This document shows positions 8,589 to 35,253 of a stretch of DNA of 35,818 nt, one piece after another. Both the position numbers and the translations under genes were made by a program. Source of the DNA: Saprospiraceae bacterium. Its GTDB lineage: Bacteria > Bacteroidota > Bacteroidia > Chitinophagales > Saprospiraceae. The notes under the pieces were generated by a model. The model was not told the DNA's origin, made no database searches, and saw nothing but the letters and a program-made list of their open reading frames with translations. The stretch spans positions 1-35,818 of the forward strand of contig JALVEE010000100.1 in assembly GCA_027008645.1 (NCBI GenBank). Direction: 5' to 3'. Within the stretch, counting starts at the first letter, position 1. The number at the start of each line of letters is the position of its first letter.

Positions 8589-11500
8589 CTACTCCTTCAA
8601 TATTACAACTTTTTTATTAATAATACCTTTTTCCGTATATAAACGAACAAAATATAATCCCGGAATCAAATTATTTACATCGATTTTATTCAATTTCTTT
8701 ATCTCATCGAATTTCTTTATTGTTCTGCCCGAAAGATCACATAATGTAAGTTTATCCACATTTTCATAATTATTGATAAAAACATTTAAGTATTGAGTAT
8801 TGACGGGATTTGGGTATATTTTAATTTCCGGTGTATCAAATTTTGCAATACCTGAATTAACAACACTTACACATTCAGATGTCTTGGAACAGTCTTCTTT
8901 ATTAATTATTACCGCATAATTTCCGGTTTCTACCGTCACATAAAACCATTCATTTGCTCCCTGTATAGTATCATAATTCGGACAAGAAACCCATTGATAT
9001 GTTGCTGCACTATCCAAAACTGCAAATAATGTGTCTCCATTTTGAATTACCGTATTGTCGATTATTATTTCTTCAACATAAATTTGGTAAATACTATCAC
9101 ATCCTTCCGTTGTTTCATACTGAGCATAATATGTTCCAGTACTATCAATATTAATTCCCTGCCATATCAGTGTATCACCTTCACATATCTCTGCTTCTTC
9201 TTCAAAATAATAATTTGGTGAAACTGTTAAATTCAACTGATATGTACTATCACAATTATCTATAGTTGAGTATGATGCATAATAGGTTCCGGTACTGTCA
9301 AGCAACATTCCCTGCCACGATAATGTATCGCCTTCACATATCCCGGCTGCTTCTTCAAAATAATAGCCTGGTAATATGGTTAAATTCAACTGATATGTAC
9401 TATCACAACCATTAACAGTACTATATGTTGCATAATATGTTCCCGTACTATCAAGTAACATTCCCTGCCACGAAAATGTGTCTCCAGAACATATCATTGC
9501 ATCCTCTTCAAAATGATAAACTGATAAAACGGTTAAATCCAGTTGATAGGTACTGTCACATCCGTCGATTGATGTATATTCCATATAATAGGTTCCCGTA
9601 CTGTCTAGCAACATTCCCTGCCACGAAAAGGTATCTCCTGAACACATCATTGCATCTTCTTCAAAATGATAATTAGCACTTAGATTTAAATTCAAATAAT
9701 AAATACTATCACACCCTTCTATTGTTTCGTATGTTTTTTGATAATTTCCCGGAAATGCATAACTCTGTCCCTGCCAATCAAAATAATCTCCCTCACAAAC
9801 AGAGGCTGTGTCATAAAACTCATATGTTGGCAATAGATTTAAGGTCAAAATATAGGAACTGTCACAACCGTTGATTGTTTCATATTCTGCATAATACGTG
9901 CCACCTGATGTCAATACATAATCCTGCCATTCAATAGTGTCTCCTTTGCACATTGACATATTTTCAGAAAACAAGTATGATGGAAAAACAATTAAATCAA
10001 GTTCAAAAATACTGTCACAGCCATCAACCGTATTATAGTTTTTAGTATAATTTCCTGCATTTGCATAGTATTCCCCCTGCCAAAAATATGAATCACCTTC
10101 ACATATTTCCTGCTCTTCATATTCATAATAATTAGGATTTACATCCAAAACAAGAGTATAAGTACTATCACAACCATAGATGTCCGTATAATTTTCAATA
10201 TATACTCCGGAATCTGTATAATAACTACCTTGCCATTCAACACTGTCTCCTTCGCAAATTGAAACATTGTTTAGCTGAGAAAAGGGTTCATGGGTTTTAA
10301 ACCATATTTTTTCACAATTCTTATTTATACCATAATCATTGTATGGATTTATTTGTATAAAAATAGTATCTCCGCAAGATAGATTATGTAAAATATAATT
10401 TGTAGTATCGCGCATATCCAGATGGCTCACAATATCAAATGTATCACTCGAAGTACCGGCGGAAAAATAATATCCGGCTGCTCCTCTGGCTTCTCCCCAT
10501 ACTACTTTTATATCCAATGGCAGATCTGTTGAATAAGGCGCGGGTGCCAATATATCTGAACAACAAGGAAATGGTTTTTCGAAATCCGGGGTCATCTTTA
10601 AAACAAATCCGTCTCCTCCGTCTCCGTTATAATAACTATCATATCCAAGATATACCGGAAAATCAATTGAATTGGTAAATCCGGCAGTAAAAATATTTCC
10701 TGATATATCTTTCGTAATCGAATAACAAAAATCATTGTCATATCCCCCAAAATATGTTGAATTCAAGAGGTTTTCCAGTTTTGGAGAAAATTTTGCTAAA
10801 AAACCATCCGCTCCTCCATTATATGAATCATCATAAGAATTGCAGAAAACAGGAAAATCAGAGGAATATGTAAATCCTGATAAAATAACATTTTTTGACG
10901 AATCTACAATCAATTCTCCCGCTATGTCTATGTTATTACCTCCTAAAAACGTAGATGCTTCAAGATGGCTTAAATCAAAATCCATAATACATAAAAAAGC
11001 ATCTTCGTTTGACATAACAGAATTTGCAAAAATAGTATCATAAGCATTTAACGTAGTAGGAAAACGAGGAGAATTTGTCGATCCTGATAAATAAATATAT
11101 GTCAAATCATTTGTAATAATACTTCCCGGAATCTCATCCTTTTTGCCTCCCAAAAATGTAGATGCTTCTATATTGGAAAGATCATCAGGTAACCTGATAA
11201 TAAAAATATCTGATCTGCCTTCTAATGTATCAGAAAAAACTCCTAAAGTTACGGGAAATGATGGATCTGTTGTCGTTCCTGTAATAAAAACCGTATGATT
11301 ATCAGCTGCAACTATATCAATAGGGACTGTAAGGCTATCTGTTTGAATGCTGTTGGAAGCTAATAAATTAGATAAACTATCATTCATTTTGAAAAAGACA
11401 AATTCTTTTGTGCCGGGATAAAGTTGTGGCCCAACAGACGGAATTCCATTATCTGAAACACCTGTTACAACAAGATTATTTTCCATATCAAAATCAAAAG

Positions 11501-12674
11501 CGATAGCTATATCATCGTAATCGCCTCCTACAAAAGTTGAGTATTTCAATTCATTTAACTTACGATCCAAACAGGAAATTATCATATCTCCGTACGAAAT
11601 AAGACCTAATCCATTGAATATCGTATCAAATGCATTGGTAGTAGTCGGATAATCTTTGGATTCTGTCCTGCCGACAAAATAAACATTGCCTGCTGTATCC
11701 AGTTTCATATCTTTTAATATATCTACATCAGATCCTCCGATATAAGTACAAGTTTCCAAAACGGAAAGACCGGAATTATACATTGCAATGAAAATATCCG
11801 TAGAATCATTGTACGTTTCATCATAAGCACCATTGGTTACAGGAAAATCAGAAGAACTTGTAACTCCTCCAACATAAACCTGTCCGTTTTTTCCAACTAA
11901 CACTTTTTCTGCAAAATCAAATTGACTTCCACCTATAAAAGTTGAAGAAAGTAACGGATCAATAAATAAAGTATATTTAGGATCATAATTTCCCAATTCA
12001 AAACCATAAACAAAATCTTCTTTTATGTTATACTTTACTGCAATATTCACTTTTTTCCCTTCTATCATTTGCCAGGCAATAGGTTTTGTGAAAGAAATGA
12101 TCCTGTTGTTTATTTCCAACTGCAATTCTCCTTCTTCGTTTTCGCACATATCGTCAATTCCATTTAATTTGAACTGAATAAATGCCGGATCTGCATTGGG
12201 TTCTATTTTTATTACTTTTTCAATATTATTCCCATTGATATTAATATTCATTGTCAATCCATCATATATTTCTCCAAAATCCACAGTATTAAAAGAAGAA
12301 ATATCTGCAATTTTTTTTCCTTTTCCCTGTTTTAAAAAATTGAATTTTGTCTGAGATATATTTTCACCTGTAATCTGAGTATTCTTTAGTTTTTTATTTA
12401 AAATGGTCTCTGTGAAATGAAATCTTTCACCGGAATCAATATTTACGAAATAATTTAAATCTCCATTGTTTAAAATGGCAATATCAGCCACACGTGTTTT
12501 AGTAGCAAAAGCAACTTTGCTATCATATTGTCCTGCATTTTTTATCCAGGGCAAAACAATTGTACTGCTACCATTAATTGAATTATTCTTTATTCTGTCC
12601 GGATTATTACCAAGAAGAACTAAAGAGAAAAAAGAAATAACAATAATTGCAGAAATAGTAAAAGATTTAATCAT
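8589..12674 (-). CDS. Secreted SBBP-repeat protein with eight cysteine repeats and T9SS tail
   Basis: A 1361-residue secreted, probably surface-attached protein. The ATG at 12674 is chosen because it gives a signal peptide (MIKSFTISAIIVISFFSLVLL); the ATG at 12716 would put 14 polar residues in front. After an N-terminal region starting PWIKNAGQYDSKVAFATKT, as often found in such proteins, residues about 240-690 hold SBBP repeats (STFIGGSQFDFAEKV, TYIGGSDVD, ASTFLGGKKDEIPG and others, with YVGGVTSSSDFPVT). A fibronectin III-like part (about 690-800) follows, then eight tandem 51-residue repeats (about 803-1200). The end is a type A T9SS sorting domain starting KIYPNPVN, about 80 residues. It lies 121 bases downstream of the anti-sigma gene in the same direction. 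Adhesion is inferred from architecture only. Confidence 0.9.
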   Translation of the reverse strand: MIKSFTISAIIVISFFSLVLLGNNPDRIKNNSINGSSTIVLPWIKNAGQYDSKVAFATKTRVADIAILNNGDLNYFVNIDSGERFHFTETILNKKLKNTQITGENISQTKFNFLKQGKGKKIADISSFNTVDFGEIYDGLTMNININGNNIEKVIKIEPNADPAFIQFKLNGIDDMCENEEGELQLEINNRIISFTKPIAWQMIEGKKVNIAVKYNIKEDFVYGFELGNYDPKYTLFIDPLLSSTFIGGSQFDFAEKVLVGKNGQVYVGGVTSSSDFPVTNGAYDETYNDSTDIFIAMYNSGLSVLETCTYIGGSDVDILKDMKLDTAGNVYFVGRTESKDYPTTTNAFDTIFNGLGLISYGDMIISCLDRKLNELKYSTFVGGDYDDIAIAFDFDMENNLVVTGVSDNGIPSVGPQLYPGTKEFVFFKMNDSLSNLLASNSIQTDSLTVPIDIVAADNHTVFITGTTTDPSFPVTLGVFSDTLEGRSDIFIIRLPDDLSNIEASTFLGGKKDEIPGSIITNDLTYIYLSGSTNSPRFPTTLNAYDTIFANSVMSNEDAFLCIMDFDLSHLEASTFLGGNNIDIAGELIVDSSKNVILSGFTYSSDFPVFCNSYDDSYNGGADGFLAKFSPKLENLLNSTYFGGYDNDFCYSITKDISGNIFTAGFTNSIDFPVYLGYDSYYNGDGGDGFVLKMTPDFEKPFPCCSDILAPAPYSTDLPLDIKVVWGEARGAAGYYFSAGTSSDTFDIVSHLDMRDTTNYILHNLSCGDTIFIQINPYNDYGINKNCEKIWFKTHEPFSQLNNVSICEGDSVEWQGSYYTDSGVYIENYTDIYGCDSTYTLVLDVNPNYYEYEEQEICEGDSYFWQGEYYANAGNYTKNYNTVDGCDSIFELDLIVFPSYLFSENMSMCKGDTIEWQDYVLTSGGTYYAEYETINGCDSSYILTLNLLPTYEFYDTASVCEGDYFDWQGQSYAFPGNYQKTYETIEGCDSIYYLNLNLSANYHFEEDAMMCSGDTFSWQGMLLDSTGTYYMEYTSIDGCDSTYQLDLTVLSVYHFEEDAMICSGDTFSWQGMLLDSTGTYYATYSTVNGCDSTYQLNLTILPGYYFEEAAGICEGDTLSWQGMLLDSTGTYYASYSTIDNCDSTYQLNLTVSPNYYFEEEAEICEGDTLIWQGINIDSTGTYYAQYETTEGCDSIYQIYVEEIIIDNTVIQNGDTLFAVLDSAATYQWVSCPNYDTIQGANEWFYVTVETGNYAVIINKEDCSKTSECVSVVNSGIAKFDTPEIKIYPNPVNTQYLNVFINNYENVDKLTLCDLSGRTIKKFDEIKKLNKIDVNNLIPGLYFVRLYTEKGIINKKVVILKE
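9060..10262 (-). repeat. Eight in-frame 153-bp tandem repeats inside the SBBP protein
   Basis: Each unit encodes C-x-GD-x(3)-WQ-x(8)-G-x-Y-x(9)-CDS-x-Y-x-L-x-L. The first cysteine codons of units 1 and 8 lie at 10254-10256 and 9183-9185, exactly 7 x 153 bases apart, so there has been no net length change. The DNA motif AACATTCCCTGCCACGA sits at 9304, 9457 and 9610, again 153 apart, showing that units 5-7 are the youngest copies. Two cysteines per unit may form a disulfide within each repeat. Confidence 0.9.
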
Positions 12675-12795
12675 AATGCGTTTTTTAGAATCATTAAAAA
12701 ATAAAACAACCGGCAACCTTTTATATACAAGATACTTTTAACAGGTAAAATGCTGCTAAAATTGTTAAAATTTTAATTTATTCTTGTGCAGAGCA

Positions 12796-13899
12796 TTAAT
12801 TACTGACCCAGCTTCTTTCCACTTCAAATCCCCTAATATTTAAAGCAAAATGTTTTCTTTTTGATTTTGACTCTTCTTTATAATCCATTTTAGCAATATT
12901 AAGTTTTTCCAATGAGGCGGAAGCTATTTCAATTGGATTGATCTTATTATAATCTTTATTGTCTATTTCCAACTTGGTCTTAACTGTTTTAATTAAAAAT
13001 TGCTTTGGGGTTAAAGCTTCTACAATTTCTGTTTTTTCCGGCTTTGTTATTATTTTCGGTGTATTTCCTTGTAACAATACAATTGATTTTAATGCCGGTG
13101 CCGGATTATTGATTTTGAATGAGGATTTCCTTTCCGGAATTGAAATATCAACTACTGAATATGCAATCAAATTGTTTTTATTTTCTTCTTTTCTCAATTC
13201 TTTTTGCGTTTTTTCTCCTGAATTATTACGAGATTTCTGATTCTTAACATATTTTAGTGATATGTCTTTAGTACTGTTTTTCTTTTTTTGAGTAATATCT
13301 TCTACAATTATTTTTTCATTGATTTTATCAACATTATTTTTTAGATTTTTATGATCATTTTCCACTATTTTGGTATTATTTTCAATTTTAGTGGAATTAT
13401 CATTTATTATACTCTTTGCAAATACCAACAGCAATAAAACAGCAGCGACGGAAGTTACAATTTTAACCCACATAGGAACAACAATATCTGTTTTCCTTTT
13501 CAGGCTTCTTTTATTTTTGTAAATTAAATCTTTTTCAGGCTTTAGAATAGTATGATTAAATGCCAGAAATTCTTTATTCTTTTCTTCCGAAAATCTTAAA
13601 ATACTGTTTAATTCCGCTTTTTCGGTTTTGTTGATTTCTCCTTCAAGGTCTTTAACGGCAAGTGTTTCAAATTCATCCAGATCTGCAATAGTATCGATAT
13701 TCAGATTTTGTTTTAAATTGTCTTTTTTATTAAACGTTGCTTTCCCTGCATCAAGAGTTAATAGCTCAAAATCATCAAATTCTTCCTTAAGTTCAGGGTT
13801 TTTATCCAAAAAATCATATAAAATACGGATATCCTCTTCCGAAAGATCTCCTTCGAAATAATCCAAAAACCATATTTCATAATTTTCTCTGTTTATCAT
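12796..13899 (-). CDS. Anti-sigma factor-like single-pass membrane protein
   Basis: A 367-residue protein with an acidic N-terminal cytoplasmic part (WFLDYFEGDLSEEDIRILYD), repeated short motifs such as LKEEFDDFELLTL and LDEFETLAVKDLEGE, one membrane helix at about 141-161 (MWVKIVTSVAAVLLLLVFAK), and a long lysine- and asparagine-rich periplasmic part. Its start overlaps the sigma factor stop by four bases (ATGA), so the two are translationally coupled. The pattern fits Bacteroidota anti-sigma factors, where the N-terminal part holds the sigma factor. I see no zinc-binding HxxxCxxC motif, so it is not the ZAS type. The function is inferred mainly from the coupling. Confidence 0.7.
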   Translation of the reverse strand: MINRENYEIWFLDYFEGDLSEEDIRILYDFLDKNPELKEEFDDFELLTLDAGKATFNKKDNLKQNLNIDTIADLDEFETLAVKDLEGEINKTEKAELNSILRFSEEKNKEFLAFNHTILKPEKDLIYKNKRSLKRKTDIVVPMWVKIVTSVAAVLLLLVFAKSIINDNSTKIENNTKIVENDHKNLKNNVDKINEKIIVEDITQKKKNSTKDISLKYVKNQKSRNNSGEKTQKELRKEENKNNLIAYSVVDISIPERKSSFKINNPAPALKSIVLLQGNTPKIITKPEKTEIVEALTPKQFLIKTVKTKLEIDNKDYNKINPIEIASASLEKLNIAKMDYKEESKSKRKHFALNIRGFEVERSWVSN

Positions 13900-14381
13900 A
13901 ATTCAACTCCCGATTTTATTAGATGATCTTTCATTTTTTTTCGCCCGCGATAAATATATACCTTCACCTGTGACTGTGTTAAACCCGTTATCTCTCCTAT
14001 CTCATCATAAGAATACCCTTCATAGTCGCGTAGTAAAATAACTGTTCTTTGGATATTGGAAAGAGTTTTAATTGCTTTGTCCAAACTTTCTTTCAAATCG
14101 GAATATTCGTGATTGTAAGAATAATTTTCCTGTGATATATTCTCTATATCTGCAACAAATTTATTTTTTCTGTAAAGATCGATTATCAGATTATTTGTTA
14201 TCCTGAACAAATATGATTTTACCCTTTCAAAATCCACTTCTTTCACATGTTGCCACAAACGCAAATATGTGTCCTGGACAATATCATTTGCCGTATTTGA
14301 ATCGCGAACATTTTTCAATGCAAAACGGTAAATATTATCCGAATATAAATCAACACATTTATTGTATTCCGTTGTAGTCAT
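13896..14381 (-). CDS. ECF-type RNA polymerase sigma factor
   Basis: A 161-residue extracytoplasmic-function sigma factor. Region 2 is residues about 10-75 (DIVQDTYLRLWQHV, then SYLFRITNNLIIDLYRK, the -10 recognition helix region). Region 4 is about 95-155 (LSNIQRTVILLRDYEGYSYD, then EIGEITGLTQSQVKVYIYRGRKKMK, a helix-turn-helix for the -35). There is no anti-sigma domain or C-terminal extension. It is translationally coupled with the membrane protein downstream. Upstream is a small dyad at 14420-14439 that may be its promoter. Two T9SS cargo genes flank the pair and are candidate targets. Confidence 0.95.
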   Translation of the reverse strand: MTTTEYNKCVDLYSDNIYRFALKNVRDSNTANDIVQDTYLRLWQHVKEVDFERVKSYLFRITNNLIIDLYRKNKFVADIENISQENYSYNHEYSDLKESLDKAIKTLSNIQRTVILLRDYEGYSYDEIGEITGLTQSQVKVYIYRGRKKMKDHLIKSGVEL

Positions 14382-14454: not shown

Positions 14455-14471
14455 GGTGTATTTCATTTTTT
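14455..14471. repeat. GGTGTATTTCATTTTTT repeat overlapping a stop codon
   Basis: Another copy of the family seen at 8266. The TGA stop of the C39-like peptidase gene (14463-14465, minus strand) lies inside it, so the last residues of the protein are encoded at the edge of the repeat. Confidence 0.6.
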
Positions 14472-15803
14472 GATCAATAATTTCGACAATTTTCTTCCTT
14501 TTGATAACAGATTTAAAATATACGTTCCGCCTGGAATACTGTTATTCAGCAAAATTTGTATTTGACCATTTGTTTGATAGAATTTTTTATCATAAACAAG
14601 ACGACCTAATGTACTGTAGATTTTAACTTCGACATTTTGTTGGTTTTCAAGTTCAAAATCAATATTCAGTTTATCTACAACCGGATTTGGATAAATTTTT
14701 ATACTTTCTTTATTATCCAAACTGATATCTTCTGTTGCCGTAGCGTTTTCATCGTAAAAAGTATATGAAATTCCTCCCTTGTTAAACCAGGATTCTGATA
14801 TCTGCTTTTTATCATAAGCAATACCATAGCCATCTGTTCGTGCAGGATTGTGCAAAAGAGGGTTTCCGTATTCATCAAAACCAGCCAACATCATCAGATG
14901 TCCGCTAAATAAAGGAGGTCCAACGGTAATAGCTATCCTTCCTCCGTTTTTCAATACTTCATAAGCCTCTGTCCAGCTCCGGTATCTTGTCACTCTTCCT
15001 CTCAATCCATATTCGGAAGCGCTTTGTACCCCTCTTGGCCAATCTCCGAAAATATCCCAGTAAGGATCTCTTGTTCTGACTGCAAAATCATAGGTATCTA
15101 CATCGTAACCAAAAGATTGAATAATCATAGACAATGATGACGGAGAACAAATTCTCTTTCCAATCACGGGATCAACTCCATATTGATATACAAAATTGGT
15201 AGAAATAAATATCTCCGGTGGATTATCATTTACTAATTGCGAAATAATTATCTGATCTGTTGTACGGGAATCACTAACGAAAAAACTCAGTTGTTTTAAA
15301 CTTGGAGGTTCAAAATCCGGATTAGTTCTTTTAAATTCGATTTTATATTGATATTCCGATATATAAACATCCAGTTTGACATAGTCAATATCAACTTTAC
15401 CTCCGTCAAAAACGGTAGAACCGTAATAAGTCCAGATATATTTGTCCCAATATCCGACCGTTACCCATTTTGACCAACTATAAGACATCTTGAACCTCAT
15501 GGAAACCCTGAATGAAGATTTTTGATCTTCCGGAGCATGACCGTTCCACGAGGGCAATCCACGATTGAATTTTTCCGGAAAACTCAGCGGTTTGGATATA
15601 TAAAAACCCTGTGTAAAGCCTTCATCAAGCTCCATTGAATTTGTTGTGGAATTATACGTTACATTTTGACTGGAATCTTCATATTCCGATAGTTCTTCTA
15701 TTCCTCTTATCACAAATTGCTGATCTGGAAAAGGCTGTGCAAAAACCGGTAAACTAAGTATTGTTGAAAATAAAAATATAAATATAAGTCTGAAATGATT
15801 CAT
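14463..15803 (-). CDS. Secreted C39-like cysteine peptidase with T9SS sorting domain
   Basis: A 446-residue exported protein. A signal peptide is clear at 1-23 (FLFSTILSLPVFAQ, cleavage after AFAQ or VFAQ). Residues about 30-190 look like a beta-rich region. Residues about 200-345 form a papain-like C39_2-type peptidase domain: CSPSSLSMII with the nucleophile C219, GHLMMLAGFDEYGNP with H302, and N319 in LLHNPA in the place of the third residue. The tail is a type A T9SS domain starting IKIYPNPVVDK at 368 and ending KGRKLSKLLIKK. The protein should cross the outer membrane by T9SS and be attached to the surface or released. Substrate unknown. A good promoter lies at 15822-15852. Confidence 0.88.
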   Translation of the reverse strand: MNHFRLIFIFLFSTILSLPVFAQPFPDQQFVIRGIEELSEYEDSSQNVTYNSTTNSMELDEGFTQGFYISKPLSFPEKFNRGLPSWNGHAPEDQKSSFRVSMRFKMSYSWSKWVTVGYWDKYIWTYYGSTVFDGGKVDIDYVKLDVYISEYQYKIEFKRTNPDFEPPSLKQLSFFVSDSRTTDQIIISQLVNDNPPEIFISTNFVYQYGVDPVIGKRICSPSSLSMIIQSFGYDVDTYDFAVRTRDPYWDIFGDWPRGVQSASEYGLRGRVTRYRSWTEAYEVLKNGGRIAITVGPPLFSGHLMMLAGFDEYGNPLLHNPARTDGYGIAYDKKQISESWFNKGGISYTFYDENATATEDISLDNKESIKIYPNPVVDKLNIDFELENQQNVEVKIYSTLGRLVYDKKFYQTNGQIQILLNNSIPGGTYILNLLSKGRKLSKLLIKK

Positions 15804-18932: not shown

Positions 18933-21900
18933 ATGAAACTCCAAATATATTTTTTACGTGTTTTTCTTATCATCATTTTTAGCGCAATAAGTTTTCTTGA
19001 ATACTCTTATTCCATTGATAATTTTACTTATAAGTATAGTGATTTGGTAAAAGTCAATAACGCACCGGTTGTCACGCTTTTAACGCCGGTTACGGGTTCA
19101 ACCTACTTGATAGGAGAAGATATTTCCATGTCGGCAAATGCTTCTGATCCGGATGGATTTGTGGTAAAAGTGATGTTTTATGCAGGGAATACTTTTCTCG
19201 GAGAAGATGTATCAGAACCTTATGAATACAAATGGCTTAAGCCAAATGGAGGAAATTATGCCATTACAGCCAAAGCAATAGATAATGACGGTGATACCAC
19301 TACATCCAATATATCCAATATCGTAGTGATCGATGAAGGACAATCGGGTGAATGGATGCATTCCGGTTTAGGTGGCGGTGGAGCAATGTTTTCGCCTTCT
19401 ATAAATCCTTTTGACAATAAAGAAATATATATTGCTTGTGATATGAGCGGAATTTACAATTCCAAAGACGAAGGGGAAAGTTGGGATTTATTGGATTTTA
19501 GACAGATCAGGGCTAATATTGAAAGTAAAATAAATTTTACAAGTTCTCCCGATACCCTTTATTCAATAGCAAATTATCCCTGGCCTAATGAAAGAACACC
19601 TGTAAAAAGCACTGATGGTGGAAAAACATGGTCGGGATTATCAGGTGATCCGACTTCAGCGGAAACATATTATTTATTTGCCGACCCCAATAGTACCAAA
19701 AGAGTGATTTTGAGTAGCTATTCGGAATTATATTATTCTGATGACGGAGGAGCATCTTTTACGCAAATTTATACAGCCAATGATCTATATGTTGGTGGTG
19801 TATTTTGGGACGGAAATGATATTTACATCGGTTGCATCGACGGTTTATTAACTTCACATGATAATGGTAATAGTTTTAATCTTGAAAATTATGATGATGA
19901 AATGCCGGCGAATTTCGGAATATTAACGCTGACAGGTGCTAAACAAGACGGAAATGTACGTTTGTTTTGTGTTGCAAGGCTTTCCGTTGATATGTGGCCT
20001 GATATTAGTCCAACCGAATATTGGTCGAATGAAGCGGATGTTTTTAGACTCAATTATCCTGATAGCAACGGCTGGACACGTGCAAATAATGGTATAAATT
20101 CGGGTGATTTTCCATATTTTGTTGCTATGGCAGCTAATAATATCGACATAGTTTATATGGCTGGTGCAGATGAAAACGGAGCAAATCAAATCGTCTATAA
20201 ATCATCCGATGGAGGAAATTCCTGGACAAATACTTTTCTAACAACCAACAATCAAAATATAGCTACGGGTTGGATGGGAGATAATGGAGATTTGGATTGG
20301 AGCTGGGCTGAATCTATTTTAGGCATTGATGTTTGCCCGAATAATCCGGATATTGTTGTGGTGACCGATTGGGGATTTGCTCACACATCGAGAAACGGCG
20401 GAAATAGTTGGCAACAAATATATGTTCCCCAAAATGAAAGCAATCCTCCCGGAAGCCAAACACCTAAAGGATTGGATTATCACTCCAACGGATTGGAAGT
20501 AACAAGTTCCTGGTGGTTGACATGGATTGATAAAGACAGTATATTTGCCAGTTACACCGATTTCACAGGTATTAAAAGTGCGGATGGTGGTAAAAGTTGG
20601 AATAAAAACTATTCGGGCAATGATTATAATAGCACTTATCAAGTAGTTAGAAGATCCGATAACGGAAAACTATTTGCAGCGGTTTCTTCGATCCATGATT
20701 TATACCAAAGTACATATTTGGAAGACTCAAGAATTGATAGTGGAACCGGAGCCATTTTGCAATCGGACGATAATGGTTTTACTTGGTCAACACTGTATGA
20801 CTTCGGGCATCCCGTAGTGTGGATTGCATTGTCACCAAATGATCCCGACAAAATGTATGCAAGTGTTGTCCATAGCACTGATGGTGGTATATTTTATTCT
20901 TCCGATTCGGGAGCAAACTGGAGCAAACTTTCAAATCCTCCTCGTACCGAAGGGCATCCTTTCAATATTAGAATATTATCTGACAATACTTTGGTTTGTA
21001 GTTATTCGGGCAGAATAAATTCATCAGGAGATTTCACGGAAAGTTCAGGAGTGTTTTACAGTACTGACAATGGAACAACTTGGTACGATCGTTCTCATCC
21101 TGATATGTATCGCTGGACAAAAGACGTGATAATTGACCCTCATGATCCCGCTCAAAACACTTGGTATGCCTGTGTTTTTAGTCATTGGGGACATTACCCG
21201 AATGAAGTAGGAGGAGTGTTTAAAACAACTGACCGCGGTGTGAATTGGACCAGACTCAATAATCTTTACAGGGTTAATTCTTTGACCGTTCACCCCGATT
21301 TTCGCGACATTGCATATATCACAACAGAAACACAAGGATTGTGGTATTCATCGGATATGTCTCAATCAAATCCCGGTTTTATGCAATTGAATTTTCCTTT
21401 TGCTCAACCGATGCGCATATTTTTCAATCCTTATGATCACAACGAAGTGTGGGCAACAAGTTTTGGAACCGGTATGTTGAAAGGAACTACTCGTCTCGGA
21501 AGAACATTTTATGTTTCGACTACAGGAAATGACAACAATTCAGGTACAAGCGAAGCACAAGCATGGCGTACAATCACTTATGCCGCATCGGCAGCAAGTC
21601 CCGTTGCACCGGGAGATACGGTTTATATCAAAGCCGGCAATTACGGAAATGAAAATGTAGTATTTGAAAAAAGCGGAACCGGTATATCGCTTATCACTTT
21701 TGCAGGATACCAAAATACTCCCGGTGATAATCCCGACCTTGAACACCAATTTGGTGACCCGCTTGATCCGGCTATTATGCCTCTTTTGAACGGTGGGGAT
21801 AGAACTACAGGAGTTGCGATTGCATTATATTCACAAAAATTTATTAATATCAAAAATATACAAATCTCTTCTTATGAGCAGGCTATTGATGGTTGGGGCG

Positions 21901-23180
21901 CATCGAATATAACATTGGAAAATATTACTGCAACCGACTTCGGGGATGTCAGTGATTCTTATGATGGTAGTGGTATTACATTTAGTCCTGATGATGACGG
22001 GAATGGTGGTGACAATAATATTTTAAGAGATTGTTTTATTGAAAATGCCGCTGCCGAGGGTATTTCTATTGCCGGCGATTCCAATAAAATACTTAATTGT
22101 AAAATCTATTGTGATCAAAATACAGACAATGCAGCTATGGATTATTATATTGTACTGGAAGGCAACTATAATATACTTGACAGTTGTTATGCTGAACGCA
22201 TAGGTAATCTGGATCATGATGGGCATGGAATAGGTTTTAAAGGAAATTGTGAAAATAATTTGGTCAAAAACAGTACTGCTAAAAATCTTGGCGGAGGATT
22301 TTATGTCCGGCATAGAGGGTGTAAAAACAATGTATTTTCAAAATGTACAATTCAAGGTTTGTATGGATTTACCATAAGGGATGGAGCAAGTTACAATACT
22401 TTTAAAGGGTGTAAAGCGATAAATACCCTTAGTGCGGTTTTGTTTTATGATACGGGTGAAGACGAAGGAGCCCAATATGCAGGACGACATAATGTATTTG
22501 AAAATTGTATATTTCAAAATACATCTGAAAATGTAATAGATTTCTTTTATTATGAATTGGAATCTATTTGCGATAGCAATACAATCGTAAATTGTGTGAT
22601 AGATGGTGGAGATTATTTGTTCAATTGCGATAGATCGAATAATCACAACAAGTTGGTTAATTCGATTATTACCAATGTGCAGAATTATTACAGGACAGCA
22701 TATCACCAAGGTGTTTCATATCCTCTTAATATCGATATCTACTATACTGATTTTTTCAATAATGGATTTAATGCTCCAAGCGGAACTGCAATAATGACAT
22801 TTGATCCGAAATTTGTAAATATTTCAGCGCATAATTATCATTTGCAGGATATCTCGCAATGTATCGACAATGGAACAAAGACGAATGCACCCCTAATTGA
22901 TTTGGATAGTGTGCCTCGTCCGTTATTGAATACTATTGATTTAGGAGCTTACGAATTTGGAATATATTGGCTTGGCGAAGAAAGCAATATGTGGCATACA
23001 TCGGGTAATTGGTCAAATCATACTGTACCAAATTCAAATGATAGTGTCACAATACCACCGCGGGAATACTACAAATATCATCCTGAAGTCAACTCTGCTG
23101 TTGATATTAGAAAAATATTTTTATATGATAATTCAAAAATGAAGATTAAAAGTAATGTTTTGTTTAATGTAATAGATTGA
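18933..23180 (+). CDS. Large secreted BNR/beta-helix protein with novel C-terminal tail
   Basis: A 1415-residue exported protein. A signal peptide is at 1-27 (FLRVFLIIIFSAISFLEYSYS). Residues about 45-140 form an Ig-like domain (NAPVVTLLTPVTGSTY, ASDPDGFVVKVMFYAG). Residues about 150-855 hold at least eleven BNR/sortilin-like Asp-box motifs (STDGGKTWSG, SSDGGNSWTN, SADGGKSWNK, TTDRGVNWTR), forming one or two beta-propellers as in xyloglucanases, but no catalytic residues could be assigned. A right-handed beta-helix begins at 857 (TFYVSTTGNDNNSGTSEAQ) and runs to about 1340. The last 72 residues (1344-1415) start IYWLGEESNMW and contain NWSNHTVPNSNDSVTIPP. No canonical T9SS sorting domain is present. 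The end matches the C10 peptidase at 31444-35253. A glycan-directed role is possible, unproven. Confidence 0.85.
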   Translation: MKLQIYFLRVFLIIIFSAISFLEYSYSIDNFTYKYSDLVKVNNAPVVTLLTPVTGSTYLIGEDISMSANASDPDGFVVKVMFYAGNTFLGEDVSEPYEYKWLKPNGGNYAITAKAIDNDGDTTTSNISNIVVIDEGQSGEWMHSGLGGGGAMFSPSINPFDNKEIYIACDMSGIYNSKDEGESWDLLDFRQIRANIESKINFTSSPDTLYSIANYPWPNERTPVKSTDGGKTWSGLSGDPTSAETYYLFADPNSTKRVILSSYSELYYSDDGGASFTQIYTANDLYVGGVFWDGNDIYIGCIDGLLTSHDNGNSFNLENYDDEMPANFGILTLTGAKQDGNVRLFCVARLSVDMWPDISPTEYWSNEADVFRLNYPDSNGWTRANNGINSGDFPYFVAMAANNIDIVYMAGADENGANQIVYKSSDGGNSWTNTFLTTNNQNIATGWMGDNGDLDWSWAESILGIDVCPNNPDIVVVTDWGFAHTSRNGGNSWQQIYVPQNESNPPGSQTPKGLDYHSNGLEVTSSWWLTWIDKDSIFASYTDFTGIKSADGGKSWNKNYSGNDYNSTYQVVRRSDNGKLFAAVSSIHDLYQSTYLEDSRIDSGTGAILQSDDNGFTWSTLYDFGHPVVWIALSPNDPDKMYASVVHSTDGGIFYSSDSGANWSKLSNPPRTEGHPFNIRILSDNTLVCSYSGRINSSGDFTESSGVFYSTDNGTTWYDRSHPDMYRWTKDVIIDPHDPAQNTWYACVFSHWGHYPNEVGGVFKTTDRGVNWTRLNNLYRVNSLTVHPDFRDIAYITTETQGLWYSSDMSQSNPGFMQLNFPFAQPMRIFFNPYDHNEVWATSFGTGMLKGTTRLGRTFYVSTTGNDNNSGTSEAQAWRTITYAASAASPVAPGDTVYIKAGNYGNENVVFEKSGTGISLITFAGYQNTPGDNPDLEHQFGDPLDPAIMPLLNGGDRTTGVAIALYSQKFINIKNIQISSYEQAIDGWGASNITLENITATDFGDVSDSYDGSGITFSPDDDGNGGDNNILRDCFIENAAAEGISIAGDSNKILNCKIYCDQNTDNAAMDYYIVLEGNYNILDSCYAERIGNLDHDGHGIGFKGNCENNLVKNSTAKNLGGGFYVRHRGCKNNVFSKCTIQGLYGFTIRDGASYNTFKGCKAINTLSAVLFYDTGEDEGAQYAGRHNVFENCIFQNTSENVIDFFYYELESICDSNTIVNCVIDGGDYLFNCDRSNNHNKLVNSIITNVQNYYRTAYHQGVSYPLNIDIYYTDFFNNGFNAPSGTAIMTFDPKFVNISAHNYHLQDISQCIDNGTKTNAPLIDLDSVPRPLLNTIDLGAYEFGIYWLGEESNMWHTSGNWSNHTVPNSNDSVTIPPREYYKYHPEVNSAVDIRKIFLYDNSKMKIKSNVLFNVID

Positions 23181-31443: not shown

Positions 31444-34400
31444 CTATGGCTCAATATCCAACTTATTGTTTTGCATAATCTCAAGTTTGGCTGTGTCTTT
31501 CAATACCATTTTTCTCACGCTTTGATTATTGAAAATAATCGGTCTGAAATCATAATCAGGGAAAATAGTGACACAGCTTTCTATATTTGGCATCAATTCT
31601 CCAAACCAATTTTTCTTATTTCCCCAAGAAGAATTGAATTTCCCAATCCAATACAATCCGTGTTCATACGCTCCAAGATCATAATGCTCAAGCAATGGTC
31701 TTCGCTTTTTGTTAAAATCATCTAAAATTCCATTTGTACTAAGGTCTATCCCTATATCAATCGCAGGTGATGAATGCACCAGAGTAAAATCGTGATTCAA
31801 AGCATCGGTAAAAAGTGGGTTTAATGCAATTTCAGAATCAGTCCAAGCATATGCATTCCATTGAGAAATAGTCTTCTCCGTCAATACATTTGAATTTATT
31901 ATTGCCAAATGTTGGATATTTGAGTTATTATACCACAAATTATGGGAATATAAATTATTGTCATTTGTAGATATCTCATCAATGGTACAAGCATATCTCT
32001 TAGCTTCACCACCAACAGCCATACCAATATTGTTTTTTATTAAATTGTTTTGAGAATGCAATATTCCCCCACCCGGTAATTCAGCATCAAAAACAGATAT
32101 CTCAAATCTACCAGCTCTACTACCTAAATCTTGACCATTTCCATATAGAGTATTGTTATAAACTTCATTTCCGCTTGATCCAATTAGCTTAATTCCTGAA
32201 CCATCATTCTCATAAATTACATTATTGCAGATTAGATTTGAATCACACCACATATCTATTTGGACACCATTTCCATCCGTTCTGGCTCCCGTATCATCTT
32301 TTGTCCCATATACCTCATTATACCTGATAATATTGTGATCTCCACCTCTATCCGCTGATTGATTCTCACTTTCTGTTCTGGAAAAAACATGTATCCCACT
32401 TGCTCCACCAACATTATTCTGACCATTGTTATAAACAATATTTTTTTCTATAATATAATACCTGCAAGCCATTTGGATACCATGACTACCATTATTATAT
32501 ATTGTATTGTTGATTACTTTTGTTTCGTTACCGGCAGAACAATCTGTTTTGTCAAATTCAATACCTATTTCTTCATTACCGTGAATAGCATTATCAGTAA
32601 AAAGATTATTGCATCCCAAAGAATACCCTCCGTCTCCTTCGCCTGTCCAAATCCCCGTTTGGTGATTAGAAATTTCATTGTTTTTAACTATACAATTGAA
32701 AGCTCCATCCGTGATATAAATTCCTGCAGAGCTTGTCCCATTATTATTATTGTCTATGATATCATTGTTGAGAACCCTTATGCTTTCGGGAGGATTATTG
32801 TCAGTATCGCCCTTTACGAGTACAGCTAAATCGGACTTGACATTGAAGTTTTTTATTGTTAGAAATGAGCTTCCGTTAAATATAGCTCCATAGTCACTGT
32901 GTGAAATAACAGGTTTGTCGCCCGTACCATAAGCTTCAATCACTATATTAGCTTTATTACTTCCTTTTTTAGTTTCATCAAAATCAAAAAACTCTTCCCA
33001 AGAATCTCCTCTTTTGAAATAGATATGATCACCGGGTTCAAAGCTTGAACTATTGACTTTACCTATAGTTTTCCAAGGAGATAATTCCGTTCCATCATTA
33101 TTATCATCGCCATTTGAAGCAACATAAAAACCCCTGTAATTTGCATCGCAACTCCAATTGGGACTATTTGGACTTTTCCTCAGTTCTATTCCATGAAAAT
33201 TGCCACTTGCATCTTCTATGTCAAAGCCGGTACCTTTATCCAAATGCATCAAAAGTATATCATCACTATCTTCGACCAATTCATCATAATGATGAGGTGT
33301 GAAATTTACAGTGTATCTGGCAACTTTTGAGTATCTTATTTCATCAAGTCTGCAATCATCGATGTACCTCACATACCCGCCACTACTACTACTGTATCTC
33401 GCTCCAAAATTTATCGCAGCTATAGATGCATCCAAATCAAAATCCGGATCTGTTGAACTACTGACTTCCTGACCATCAAAATACATTTTTGTTGAAGTTC
33501 CGGTGTGTGATACCGCGATATGATGCCATTGATTTAAACTCAGATAATCGCTTCCGGAATTAAAACTACCCTCAATATCAAACCCATTTCCCGTGCCATC
33601 AAGAGCAATCATCCCAACACCAAGATTCCCTGAAGTATTTCTAAAATAAAGTTCAAAAGAATATTTTCTGCTGATTATTGCCGGAAAAGTACCGCTGGCA
33701 GGAACAGTTGTAGGATAAACCCAGGATTCTATAGTCCAATCGCTACCATTGACATCTAATAGATCAATCGAATCGTTTACAAAATATGAATCATTTCCAT
33801 CAAAATCCAATGATGTAATATCTCCTTCTACAAATACAGTTATAGGTACAGAGTAATTGTCTGCATACCAATGACCATCTATTTTTGCCCTTACTCTATA
33901 TCGATATTCTCCACATTGATCAACAGTATCTGCATATTCCTGCACTACAGTTTTACCAATAGTAGTCCAAGTAGAATTGATATACTTTTGAATCTGGAAA
34001 CTATCACAAACCAAATTGGCTGCTATATTCCAATGCAAGGTGAAGATATTTGAATTCTGAACCTGCATTTCTTCAAATTCGGGATCGGGTAAGATATCAA
34101 AAACGGCAGCATCAACCGAGGTATATCCACCGGCATTAAACGTACCTCTTAATCTATACCAAGCATTACTTGCCCCCCACCAATTCATATTGAGATGATA
34201 ATACCTATTATTAATATCAGGATCATTATCCAATACTCCATACCCATCGCAGACGGGAGCGTGACCTATAGCCCCGGCTCCTCCAATATCAAGTTGTAGA
34301 GGATGACCGTTTTCGATATTTTCATCAAACCTATCCCAAAAATGAGACCAATTTTTTGTTTGGTAATGTCCGGTATATCTAAAATAATCATCCAAAGCAG

Positions 34401-35253
34401 CCGGTGTTCGATTGATATTGGATGTAGATCCGTTATACTCATAATCCATATCCAACGCAGTCCCTGCTTGAAAAACCAATCTTCCAACGGCTTTCCTTTC
34501 TATTGTATCCGATACTTTATACATATATTCGTTGAGCATATTGCTCCAATCATAATAAGTCTTTTCAAAATTGGCATAGTATGAACCTTGAGATGAGCCT
34601 GAATTGTCATTGTTTGTATGTGAACCAATACCGTGTACCGGCCATCTGTAGTAATGCAATATTTGACTGAAAGAAAGTGCTACACAACCTCCGGCATAAT
34701 GATTGGGAGTATAAAAATTAGTGACATTTATATAAGAACTATCTTGGTCTTTGCAATTGACTTGTCCCCAGATATCAGGCAAATGAGGACCATAAAGCTT
34801 AACAAATGCTCTGTTTTTTATCGTCTTGCCCCCATTCCATTTACTCTTATTTCTTTCATAAAGTTCAAGCAATCGCTCATCATTTGTAGTCTTTATAAGA
34901 GAAAGCTGATGGCGCATATCATCCCGAATCAAATTCAAAAGTGTATTGTAAGGAGATTCTTCAAAAACAAAATCACTATCAAATGAATAAGCAATTAGAG
35001 GATACAAATATTTATTGGCTGAAAAAACCATAAATCCAATAGGATTGACCTCTACAACATAAGCCAAAACTGTATCTTCATCCAATATCGTTTTTATATC
35101 TTTATCAATCGAAGAAGCTTCAGGATTTAATGTAATCAAATATTTATCTGCTACTCCCTCCAATACCCTACGCTCTATCTGTCCGTTGATATTAAAACTA
35201 AAAAGAGAAACAAAAACAATTAAAAAAATATATCTCATAATAAAAAATTTCAT
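31444..35253 (-). CDS. Secreted C10 (streptopain-like) peptidase with LamG, beta-helix and shared tail
   Basis: A 1269-residue exported protein. Signal peptide at 1-25 (FIMRYIFLIVFVSLFSFNIN); a start at 35238 is also possible. A propeptide-like part (about 26-140) is followed by a C10 peptidase domain: GGCVALSFSQILHYYRWP with nucleophile C190, GHAPVCDGYG with H331, and NMNWWG at 355-360 (N357, W358, the family's usual NWGW region). A fibronectin III-like domain (about 400-475) and a LamG-like domain (from about 485, SDWTIESWVYP, QWHHIAVSH) follow. A right-handed beta-helix begins near 710 (FYVASNGDDNNDGTE). The last 72 residues start LYWIGKFNSSW and carry NWFGELMPNIESCVTIFPDY, resembling the BNR protein's end. 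No canonical T9SS sorting domain. A broad-substrate secreted protease is likely; the target is unknown. Confidence 0.88.
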   Translation of the reverse strand: MKFFIMRYIFLIVFVSLFSFNINGQIERRVLEGVADKYLITLNPEASSIDKDIKTILDEDTVLAYVVEVNPIGFMVFSANKYLYPLIAYSFDSDFVFEESPYNTLLNLIRDDMRHQLSLIKTTNDERLLELYERNKSKWNGGKTIKNRAFVKLYGPHLPDIWGQVNCKDQDSSYINVTNFYTPNHYAGGCVALSFSQILHYYRWPVHGIGSHTNNDNSGSSQGSYYANFEKTYYDWSNMLNEYMYKVSDTIERKAVGRLVFQAGTALDMDYEYNGSTSNINRTPAALDDYFRYTGHYQTKNWSHFWDRFDENIENGHPLQLDIGGAGAIGHAPVCDGYGVLDNDPDINNRYYHLNMNWWGASNAWYRLRGTFNAGGYTSVDAAVFDILPDPEFEEMQVQNSNIFTLHWNIAANLVCDSFQIQKYINSTWTTIGKTVVQEYADTVDQCGEYRYRVRAKIDGHWYADNYSVPITVFVEGDITSLDFDGNDSYFVNDSIDLLDVNGSDWTIESWVYPTTVPASGTFPAIISRKYSFELYFRNTSGNLGVGMIALDGTGNGFDIEGSFNSGSDYLSLNQWHHIAVSHTGTSTKMYFDGQEVSSSTDPDFDLDASIAAINFGARYSSSSGGYVRYIDDCRLDEIRYSKVARYTVNFTPHHYDELVEDSDDILLMHLDKGTGFDIEDASGNFHGIELRKSPNSPNWSCDANYRGFYVASNGDDNNDGTELSPWKTIGKVNSSSFEPGDHIYFKRGDSWEEFFDFDETKKGSNKANIVIEAYGTGDKPVISHSDYGAIFNGSSFLTIKNFNVKSDLAVLVKGDTDNNPPESIRVLNNDIIDNNNNGTSSAGIYITDGAFNCIVKNNEISNHQTGIWTGEGDGGYSLGCNNLFTDNAIHGNEEIGIEFDKTDCSAGNETKVINNTIYNNGSHGIQMACRYYIIEKNIVYNNGQNNVGGASGIHVFSRTESENQSADRGGDHNIIRYNEVYGTKDDTGARTDGNGVQIDMWCDSNLICNNVIYENDGSGIKLIGSSGNEVYNNTLYGNGQDLGSRAGRFEISVFDAELPGGGILHSQNNLIKNNIGMAVGGEAKRYACTIDEISTNDNNLYSHNLWYNNSNIQHLAIINSNVLTEKTISQWNAYAWTDSEIALNPLFTDALNHDFTLVHSSPAIDIGIDLSTNGILDDFNKKRRPLLEHYDLGAYEHGLYWIGKFNSSWGNKKNWFGELMPNIESCVTIFPDYDFRPIIFNNQSVRKMVLKDTAKLEIMQNNKLDIEP

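Follow-up and report, generated by a model that had tools for sequence, protein, structure and literature searches.

The window analyzed here comprises positions 1 to 35,818 (35,818 nucleotides in all) of contig JALVEE010000100.1, from the Saprospiraceae bacterium assembly GCA_027008645.1. Two secreted proteins encoded in it, which we call W1 and W2, end in a tail of 74 and 72 residues, respectively, that is marked by a W-x-G motif and followed directly by the stop codon. Homologous tails close unrelated proteins in 31 genomes, and a distinct C-terminal use of this small domain is well supported. We tentatively propose, at a probability of roughly 0.45, that the tail is a self-standing C-terminal domain that replaces the sorting domain of the type IX secretion system (T9SS) on Sec-exported enzymes and adhesins, and that it sorts or anchors these proteins at the cell surface.

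A common C-terminal tail in the source genome

The domains of W1 and W2, together with two window proteins that served for comparison, are given below (E, expectation value; pLDDT, predicted local distance difference test).

18933..23180, plus strand: W1, secreted protein of 1415 amino acids closed by the W-x-G tail; start resembles a signal peptide under a hydrophobicity rule
19065..19271, plus strand: W1 Big_7 immunoglobulin (Ig)-like domain, residues 45-113 (Pfam PF17957, E 2.4e-14)
19350..21497, plus strand: W1 Sortilin/BNR-type propeller region, about residues 140-855, limits approximate (PF15902 in 5 stretches, E 7.5e-29; PF02012 below cut-off)
21501..22832, plus strand: W1 right-handed beta-helix, about residues 857-1300 (homology to the carrier C12a on contig C12, 62% identity over 569 amino acids; the C12a beta-helix matches PF13229)
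22833..22958, plus strand: W1 choice-of-anchor Q domain, residues 1301-1342 (NF041518, 30.9 bits, cut-off 25)
22956..23177, plus strand: W1 terminal W-x-G tail, residues 1342-1415, then stop codon (tail profiles; AlphaFold2 pLDDT 96.5)
31444..35253, minus strand: W2, 1269-amino-acid secreted protein with terminal W-x-G tail
34156..34749, minus strand: W2 peptidase C10 domain, residues 169-366 (PF01640, E 9.6e-35)
33349..33798, minus strand: W2 LamG domain, residues 486-635 (PF13385, E 1.9e-15)
31792..33135, minus strand: W2 right-handed beta-helix, about residues 707-1154, limits approximate (PF13229, E 9.6e-14)
31660..31791, minus strand: W2 choice-of-anchor Q-like domain, residues 1155-1198 (NF041518, 22.0 bits on the protein, cut-off 25; 27 bits in the genome search)
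31447..31662, minus strand: W2 terminal W-x-G tail, residues 1198-1269, then stop codon (tail profiles)
8589..12716, minus strand: window protein with a standard type A T9SS domain at its C-terminus (TIGR04183 at 8601-8819, 53.9 bits)
14463..15803, minus strand: window protein with a standard type A T9SS domain at its C-terminus (TIGR04183 at 14466-14696, 46 bits)

Comparison of W1 with W2 by BLASTP revealed 36% identity over the 123 C-terminal residues (E 3e-18) and 35% identity (E 6e-8) across 82 residues where the beta-helix begins, while the middle of the beta-helix gave no comparable BLASTP match. From the DLGAYE motif, which is the end of the NCBIfam model NF041518 (choice-of-anchor Q), to the C-terminus, the two are 35% identical (81 columns). 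The Pfam scan returned no beta-helix match in W1 itself and a further weak match, to Inhibitor_I69, in W2. An earlier note on this DNA had described both proteins, and both are present, W2 on the minus strand, a detail that the note did not give. Its statement that they share the same C-terminal half applies to the start of the beta-helix and to the 123 C-terminal residues but not to the middle of the beta-helix. It was right that the front modules are unrelated (Big_7 and a Sortilin/BNR-type propeller in W1, Peptidase_C10 and LamG in W2), that neither protein has a T9SS domain (no sorting model matched at E <= 1), and that other window proteins do, as TIGR04183 matched the two genes listed. 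The gene at 8589-12716 (1375 amino acids, minus strand) also encodes, as judged by eye, several tandem repeats of about 60 residues of the form CEGDxxxWQG...GTYY...GCDSTYxL, and it is adjoined by a sigma/anti-sigma-like pair at 12796-14381.

A search of the source genome with a profile of the two tails found the tail on nine proteins at E <= 1e-18, the next match reaching only E 0.005. The common stop position reported for W1 and W2 extends to the whole set: all eight uncut carriers stop at the end of the profile, and the ninth runs off its contig. Nine copies in one genome, eight of eight with a common stop, indicate that the shared tail exceeds chance. With a wider profile, we found one further terminal copy, in a 136-residue frame on contig C88, and two modules, on C290 and C121, that continue past the profile end. 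In the same 4.1 Mb genome (G000), at least 150 type A matches (150 of 241 candidates were scored) and 22 type B matches exceed the cut-off, so the W-x-G tail is a minor class in it. The tail of the C88 frame (L023, 7360-7770) groups in the module tree with those of loci L077, L085 and L149, whose frames are about 630 residues long and of which L077 and L149 match Peptidase_M1; from this grouping, the frame may be the remnant of an M1 peptidase.

The domain in front of the tail allowed a direct comparison with T9SS domains. NCBI uses the name "choice-of-anchor" for domains with varying anchors after them, and choice-of-anchor Q, which is distinct from the tail that it adjoins, directly precedes the tail in all 9 genome carriers by their coordinates. 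NF041518 matches 17 proteins in the genome at E <= 0.001. Nine of these run straight into the tail (one being cut by a contig end), five carry TIGR04183 (C12 by protein scan; C279, C60, C192 and C66 by frame and position, the C60 frame continuing oddly past the domain), one on C211 carries a type A domain by eye, and two are cut by contig ends. Among the 15 that could be resolved there are thus nine with the tail, six with a type A domain and none with neither, so that the tail alternates with type A domains behind choice-of-anchor Q in this genome. On contig C12, the protein C12Q_T9 adjoins the carrier C12a and has a type A TIGR04183 domain in place of the tail; it is 44% identical to C12a (564-column alignment) and 46-47% identical to W1 and to the carrier on C170 (about 495 columns). 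The genome has two copies of a three-gene block that encodes a 389-amino-acid ATPase-like protein, a 287-amino-acid protein and a beta-helix-tail protein, one each on contigs C12 and C170 (L018, 804-7086; L022, 1-6143).

We also compared rates of synonymous (dS) and nonsynonymous (dN) substitution in seven ortholog pairs with the related genome G002. The tail gave a dS of 0.376 and a dN of 0.044, a ratio of 0.118, and the 350 residues before it gave 0.155; the tail is under purifying selection. Between W2 and its G002 counterpart (L069), the tail is 94% identical and the preceding 350 residues only 64%, as if the body had been exchanged or were evolving fast.

Terminal and internal copies among relatives

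To follow the module beyond one genome, 60 relatives were searched with a profile of the nine tails and 80 of the matching stretches were analyzed. For modules with a known stop, the profile end lay either -7 to +4 or at least 25 residues from it, and 57 modules were scored as terminal (those below 15 bits, starting after position 6 or without a stop in hand were dropped). A 30-row profile built from terminal tails, A3, then defined 165 distinct modules, a set without matches that score below 25 bits, begin past profile position 8 or end short of position 60, without sequence duplicates, and without modules closer than 100 residues to an open end. In 73 of the 165, the distance to the stop is -1 to +5 residues; the interval 6-24 is empty, 59 modules lie at 25 or more and 33 reach past the end of the sequence in hand. 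The two-peaked split is not peculiar to A3, as it was also obtained with the profile of the genome's own nine. In a tree of the 165 modules, 91 of 162 inner branches remained open for want of columns; the tree has 12 terminal/internal changes versus 54 for shuffles, and the starred branches force only 2.

Two families, f20 and f1, were sampled more deeply (98 and 100 genomes), and the module was found at E <= 1e-7 in 54 and 62 of them. A terminal tail was present in 20 of 57 further loci taken as the best of each genome (6/28 in f20 and 14/29 in f1); hits below 30 bits were dropped from this sample, five of the f1 genomes were already known, and at locus L282 a terminal copy is present but is not the best-scoring one. 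Distances to the stop, where in hand, were again split, at -1 to +2 or at least 23. Altogether, terminal tails occur in 31 genomes with seven family codes (f1, f6, f8, f11, f13, f20, f21), all in the window's order. Loci L146, L147 and L149 carry one outside the genus, that of L147 stopping 5 residues past the profile, and in genome G148 there are 11 terminal tails in 14 stretches. Three f20 genomes, G392, G422 and G432, have 29, 16 and 17 module hits, and the one locus classified in each is not terminal.

The proteins that bear the tail were examined by Pfam scans of 20 chosen terminal-tail proteins of relatives (two without a match), six carriers of the source genome and one further relative. 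Enzymes among the partners include a metallophosphatase (purple acid phosphatase), two M1 peptidases, a matrixin, an alpha-amylase, a pectate lyase, a GH9 cellulase and C10 peptidase; the other partners are DUF6259, Disaggr_assoc, LamG, Sortilin/BNR, PKD, GEVED, fn3, F5/8C, DUF285, DUF7948 and beta-helix domains. A signal-peptide-like start was seen in 59 of the 61 carriers with the 5' end in hand by a lenient rule that 119 of 228 control frames also pass, and a lipobox in none of the 61. As expected of a C-terminal sorting or anchoring module, the tail closes many unrelated secreted proteins exactly at their end within the window's order, where internal copies occur as well.

Internal modules often precede a type A T9SS domain, as judged by eye. 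RemA of F. johnsoniae, a known T9SS adhesin, contains a homologous W-x-G module at residues 891-960 of 1436 (positions 4-72 of the 73-position profile, E 6.6e-14), with further sequence after it; for the RemA homologue RemZ, the C-terminal domain alone was well resolved, according to the available text of PMC10994853. The spirochaete Treponema bryantii has three internal modules in one frame (L167), so the link between module and T9SS is not strict outside the phylum. These surveys bear on the questions that the earlier note had raised. The modules in front of the tail are many and unrelated. The module is C-terminal in 31 genomes of the window's order, and it is often internal both there and in other orders. 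Judged by the refuting condition that the note itself had set, the novelty suggested for it does not hold for the module as such, given how common internal copies with more sequence after them are; its use as a last domain, found in one order, appears to be undescribed, and the literature searched (titles and abstract openings, partly samples) contained no paper on such a C-terminal domain. The view that a deliberate module is a better explanation than two losses of a T9SS domain was borne out by purifying selection, by the alternation with type A domains and by the recurrence, in 31 genomes, of tails that close unrelated proteins at the same exact position.

Predicted fold and known families

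None of 30 tails matched the T9SS models of NCBIfam, including type A TIGR04183 and type B TIGR04131, and no model in that library matched more than one of the 30 at E <= 1. The library probably also includes a model for type C, the ChiA type, which would then be among those without a match. Like the tail, type A, B and C domains are the last domain, of 70-100 amino acids, on many unrelated Sec-exported cargos of Bacteroidota, and type A shares with it the slot behind choice-of-anchor Q. The type A domain (TIGR04183/PF18962) is reported to be a seven-stranded Ig-like sandwich (PMC12618676, PMC10994853); for the predicted fold of the tail, described below, the best structural match is a beta-helix. 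A relationship between the tail and type A domains was considered and rejected: it had been hinted at by a BLAST run-on and by two weak matches of the first profile that fell on type A domains (C297, C170), but the profile-profile probability was 0.0. Pairing with a SprF-like partner, as for type B, was likewise set aside, as no porP/sprF-like gene was seen by eye among the neighbours, which were not searched with a SprF model. A phage origin was dismissed as well, PHROGs giving only single weak matches and the sole IMG/VR locus (L016) having more open sequence after the module.

Pfam did provide distant matches. Amnionless (PF14828) matched 15 of the 30 tails at E <= 1, the best at 3.3e-5, and G8 (PF10162) matched 10, the best at 0.004. 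The bit scores given for carriers stayed below the Amnionless gathering score of 30.4 bits: W1 and W2 gave no match up to E 1, and the best among the carriers listed was 20.3 bits (C121). The G8 match of the W1 tail, 12 bits against a cut-off of 22.9, covers positions 1-25 of 124.

We then turned to structure prediction. The 74-residue W1 tail was modelled by AlphaFold2 with a pLDDT of 96.5 and a predicted template modelling score (pTM) of 0.82 (31 homologues), and the high pLDDT of the isolated tail indicates that these residues fold alone in the prediction. Five strands in the model are at least 3 residues long. In a Foldseek search, Amnionless (6gje) was the better of two Protein Data Bank matches (probability 0.97, E 0.16). 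VIA-align, which compared only the two chains found by Foldseek, a list too short to exclude other folds, placed model residues 9-74 on Amnionless 26-89 with a Z of 5.4 and 2.4 Å over 64 residues. Beside this low Z, the family sequence matches and the structural match both point to Amnionless. The match of 15 of the 30 tails suggests that a bacterial surface module and the N-terminal beta-helix of animal Amnionless may have a common origin.

At the base of beta-helix 1, Amnionless has a hydrophobic triangle formed by Met69, Leu71, Leu77, Leu79 and Phe85, which docks end-on onto three cubilin strands (PMC6283879). If two unpaired model residues sit in the Tyr-rich loop, this triangle would correspond in the W1 tail to positions 54, 56, 62, 64 and 70 (I, L, M, I, F), with identical spacing, a mapping inferred from the end points of the alignment and not from a residue alignment. 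Six last-rung columns, the matching ones and position 72, are V, I, L, M, F, W or Y in 93-100% of terminal tails and in 95-100% of internal modules; the lowest value by group among terminal tails is 75% (f20, column 61). In W1 the six hydrophobics of the last rung are I1395, L1397, M1403, I1405, F1411 and V1413, and two residues follow position 72. Since a hydrophobic last rung is kept by selection and is left without a cap, the model suggests that it is a docking face; in internal modules the same hydrophobics could be buried under later rungs. An aromatic surface patch that seemed specific to terminal tails in pooled counts (column 54, Y/F) was rejected as a candidate because it is confined to the window's genus, being hydrophobic at 0.86 versus 0.17 in f20 and 0.38 in other groups.

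These results can be assembled into a possible mechanism. Within the order to which Saprospiraceae and Chitinophagaceae belong, the tail would stand in for the T9SS C-terminal domain. It is predicted to be a compact, short, Amnionless-like beta-helix with almost nothing after its last rung, and its open hydrophobic base would dock end-on onto the beta-strand face of a partner, in the way that Amnionless beta-helix 1 docks onto trimeric cubilin. The partner could be a scaffold at the surface, a carrier in the outer membrane or another copy of the tail. Passage across the outer membrane would be through the T9SS, perhaps on a carrier that is not PorV. The likeness to Amnionless lies in the top structural match, the weak sequence match and the putative hydrophobic base of the same spacing; Amnionless differs in that its beta-helix is N-terminal and belongs to a eukaryotic membrane protein that docks cubilin. 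Docking by the base is a specific, testable guess. By analogy with Amnionless and cubilin, it is possible, though doubtful, that T9SS-bearing bacteria have a further class of C-terminal cargo signal in which an uncapped terminal beta-helix pyramid plugs onto the beta-strand face of a partner.

Weighing the readings

Sorting or anchoring is, as we infer from sequence, the best reading of the tail's position, its partners and its alternation with T9SS domains. Presence of the T9SS was scored by SprA, which is encoded in the source genome and in 59 of the 60 relatives; 17 of the 31 terminal-carrier genomes were scored and all 17 are positive (G000-G004, G006-G009, G021, G041, G043, G046, G048, G056, G091, G148). 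In a draw of 296 genomes from the phylum, 228 had SprA and 68 had the module (E <= 1e-9, any position, at most 19 candidates scored per genome). All module carriers were SprA-positive (68/228 versus 0/68 SprA-negative Bacteroidota genomes; hypergeometric probability 1.2e-9, which ignores kinship), and the earlier note's question about genomes that lack the T9SS is thereby addressed for the module in any position.

Other roles for the tail were considered. It might merely end the beta-helix and guard it against fraying or proteolysis, with no role in sorting. A beta-helix indeed precedes the tail in 9 of 9 genome carriers, by Pfam (some below cut-off) or homology, and the tail's own best match is a short beta-helix. 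We nevertheless regard a structural cap as unlikely, since terminal tails also occur on two M1 peptidases, an alpha-amylase, a matrixin and a phosphatase without a beta-helix at E <= 0.01, since a hydrophobic last rung with almost nothing after it is the opposite of a cap, and since the adjacent paralogue C12Q_T9 manages without the tail. Alternatively, the tail could bind extracellular polymers, as a small lectin or another carbohydrate-binding domain; the glycan-acting partners (GH9, amylase, pectate lyase), the invariant W residues and the presence of the module inside large proteins such as RemA speak for this. Conservation of the invariant W, N and P is almost as strict in internal modules, however, which makes these residues look structural, and proteases and a phosphatase are among the partners. 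Binding modules are not generally fixed to the last position of a protein, and substrate binding seems to us quite improbable.

Two further explanations concern the fate of the proteins. Proteins with a signal peptide and no T9SS domain are periplasmic by default, and the carriers, with their signal-peptide-like starts, could be retained in the periplasm by a tail docked on a periplasmic partner. Their repertoire of PKD, GEVED, BNR, LamG and cellulase domains resembles surface or secreted T9SS cargo instead, and the neighbouring paralogue carries a T9SS domain, which leaves little room for retention without export. Nonsense mutations might also have cost W1 and W2 a downstream T9SS domain, as the homologous module elsewhere often has more sequence after it. 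Truncation was rejected as extremely improbable, since the eight uncut genome carriers and 73 distinct modules share the stop position, the tail is under purifying selection, and no T9SS-like sequence was seen by eye in three frames over about 300 bases after the stops of 7 genes.

Several results weigh against sorting or anchoring by the tail and against the docking model. The module need not be a signal in itself, given its frequent internal copies: 37 of the 57 best loci in f20 and f1 show internal copies only, 28 of 29 new loci in the phylum draw are not terminal (the exception, L192, lies in the window's order), and 6 of 6 stretches from other orders of the class are internal. As for the SprA statistic, 16 of the 20 SprA-negative genomes listed, of 68 in all, belong to one family, and since SprA is near-universal in the order, dependence of the terminal form on the T9SS cannot be separated from it. 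The tail has no profile similarity to type A domains, and use of the same PorV route is therefore not supported. On the structural side, the Amnionless match is modest (Foldseek E 0.16), its Z of 5.4 lying below the safe level, as a Z <8 can reflect a common arrangement, and the W1 tail itself matches only G8, at E 0.2, and not Amnionless. For the C-terminal 560 residues of W1, the model is poor (pLDDT 57.9, seven alignment rows) and permits no statement on how the tail packs against its own beta-helix.

The domains by which type IX cargo is currently recognised are those of types A, B and C (PMC10202324). Should the tail be a signal for sorting or anchoring, predicted secretomes of Saprospiraceae and Chitinophagaceae would lack a class of cargo that includes a cellulase, a pectate lyase and peptidases, and the carrier would have to read a fold unlike the Ig-like type A domain. 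The docking model, with its named residues, is testable, and it may reveal a principle in common with the animal vitamin B12 receptor.

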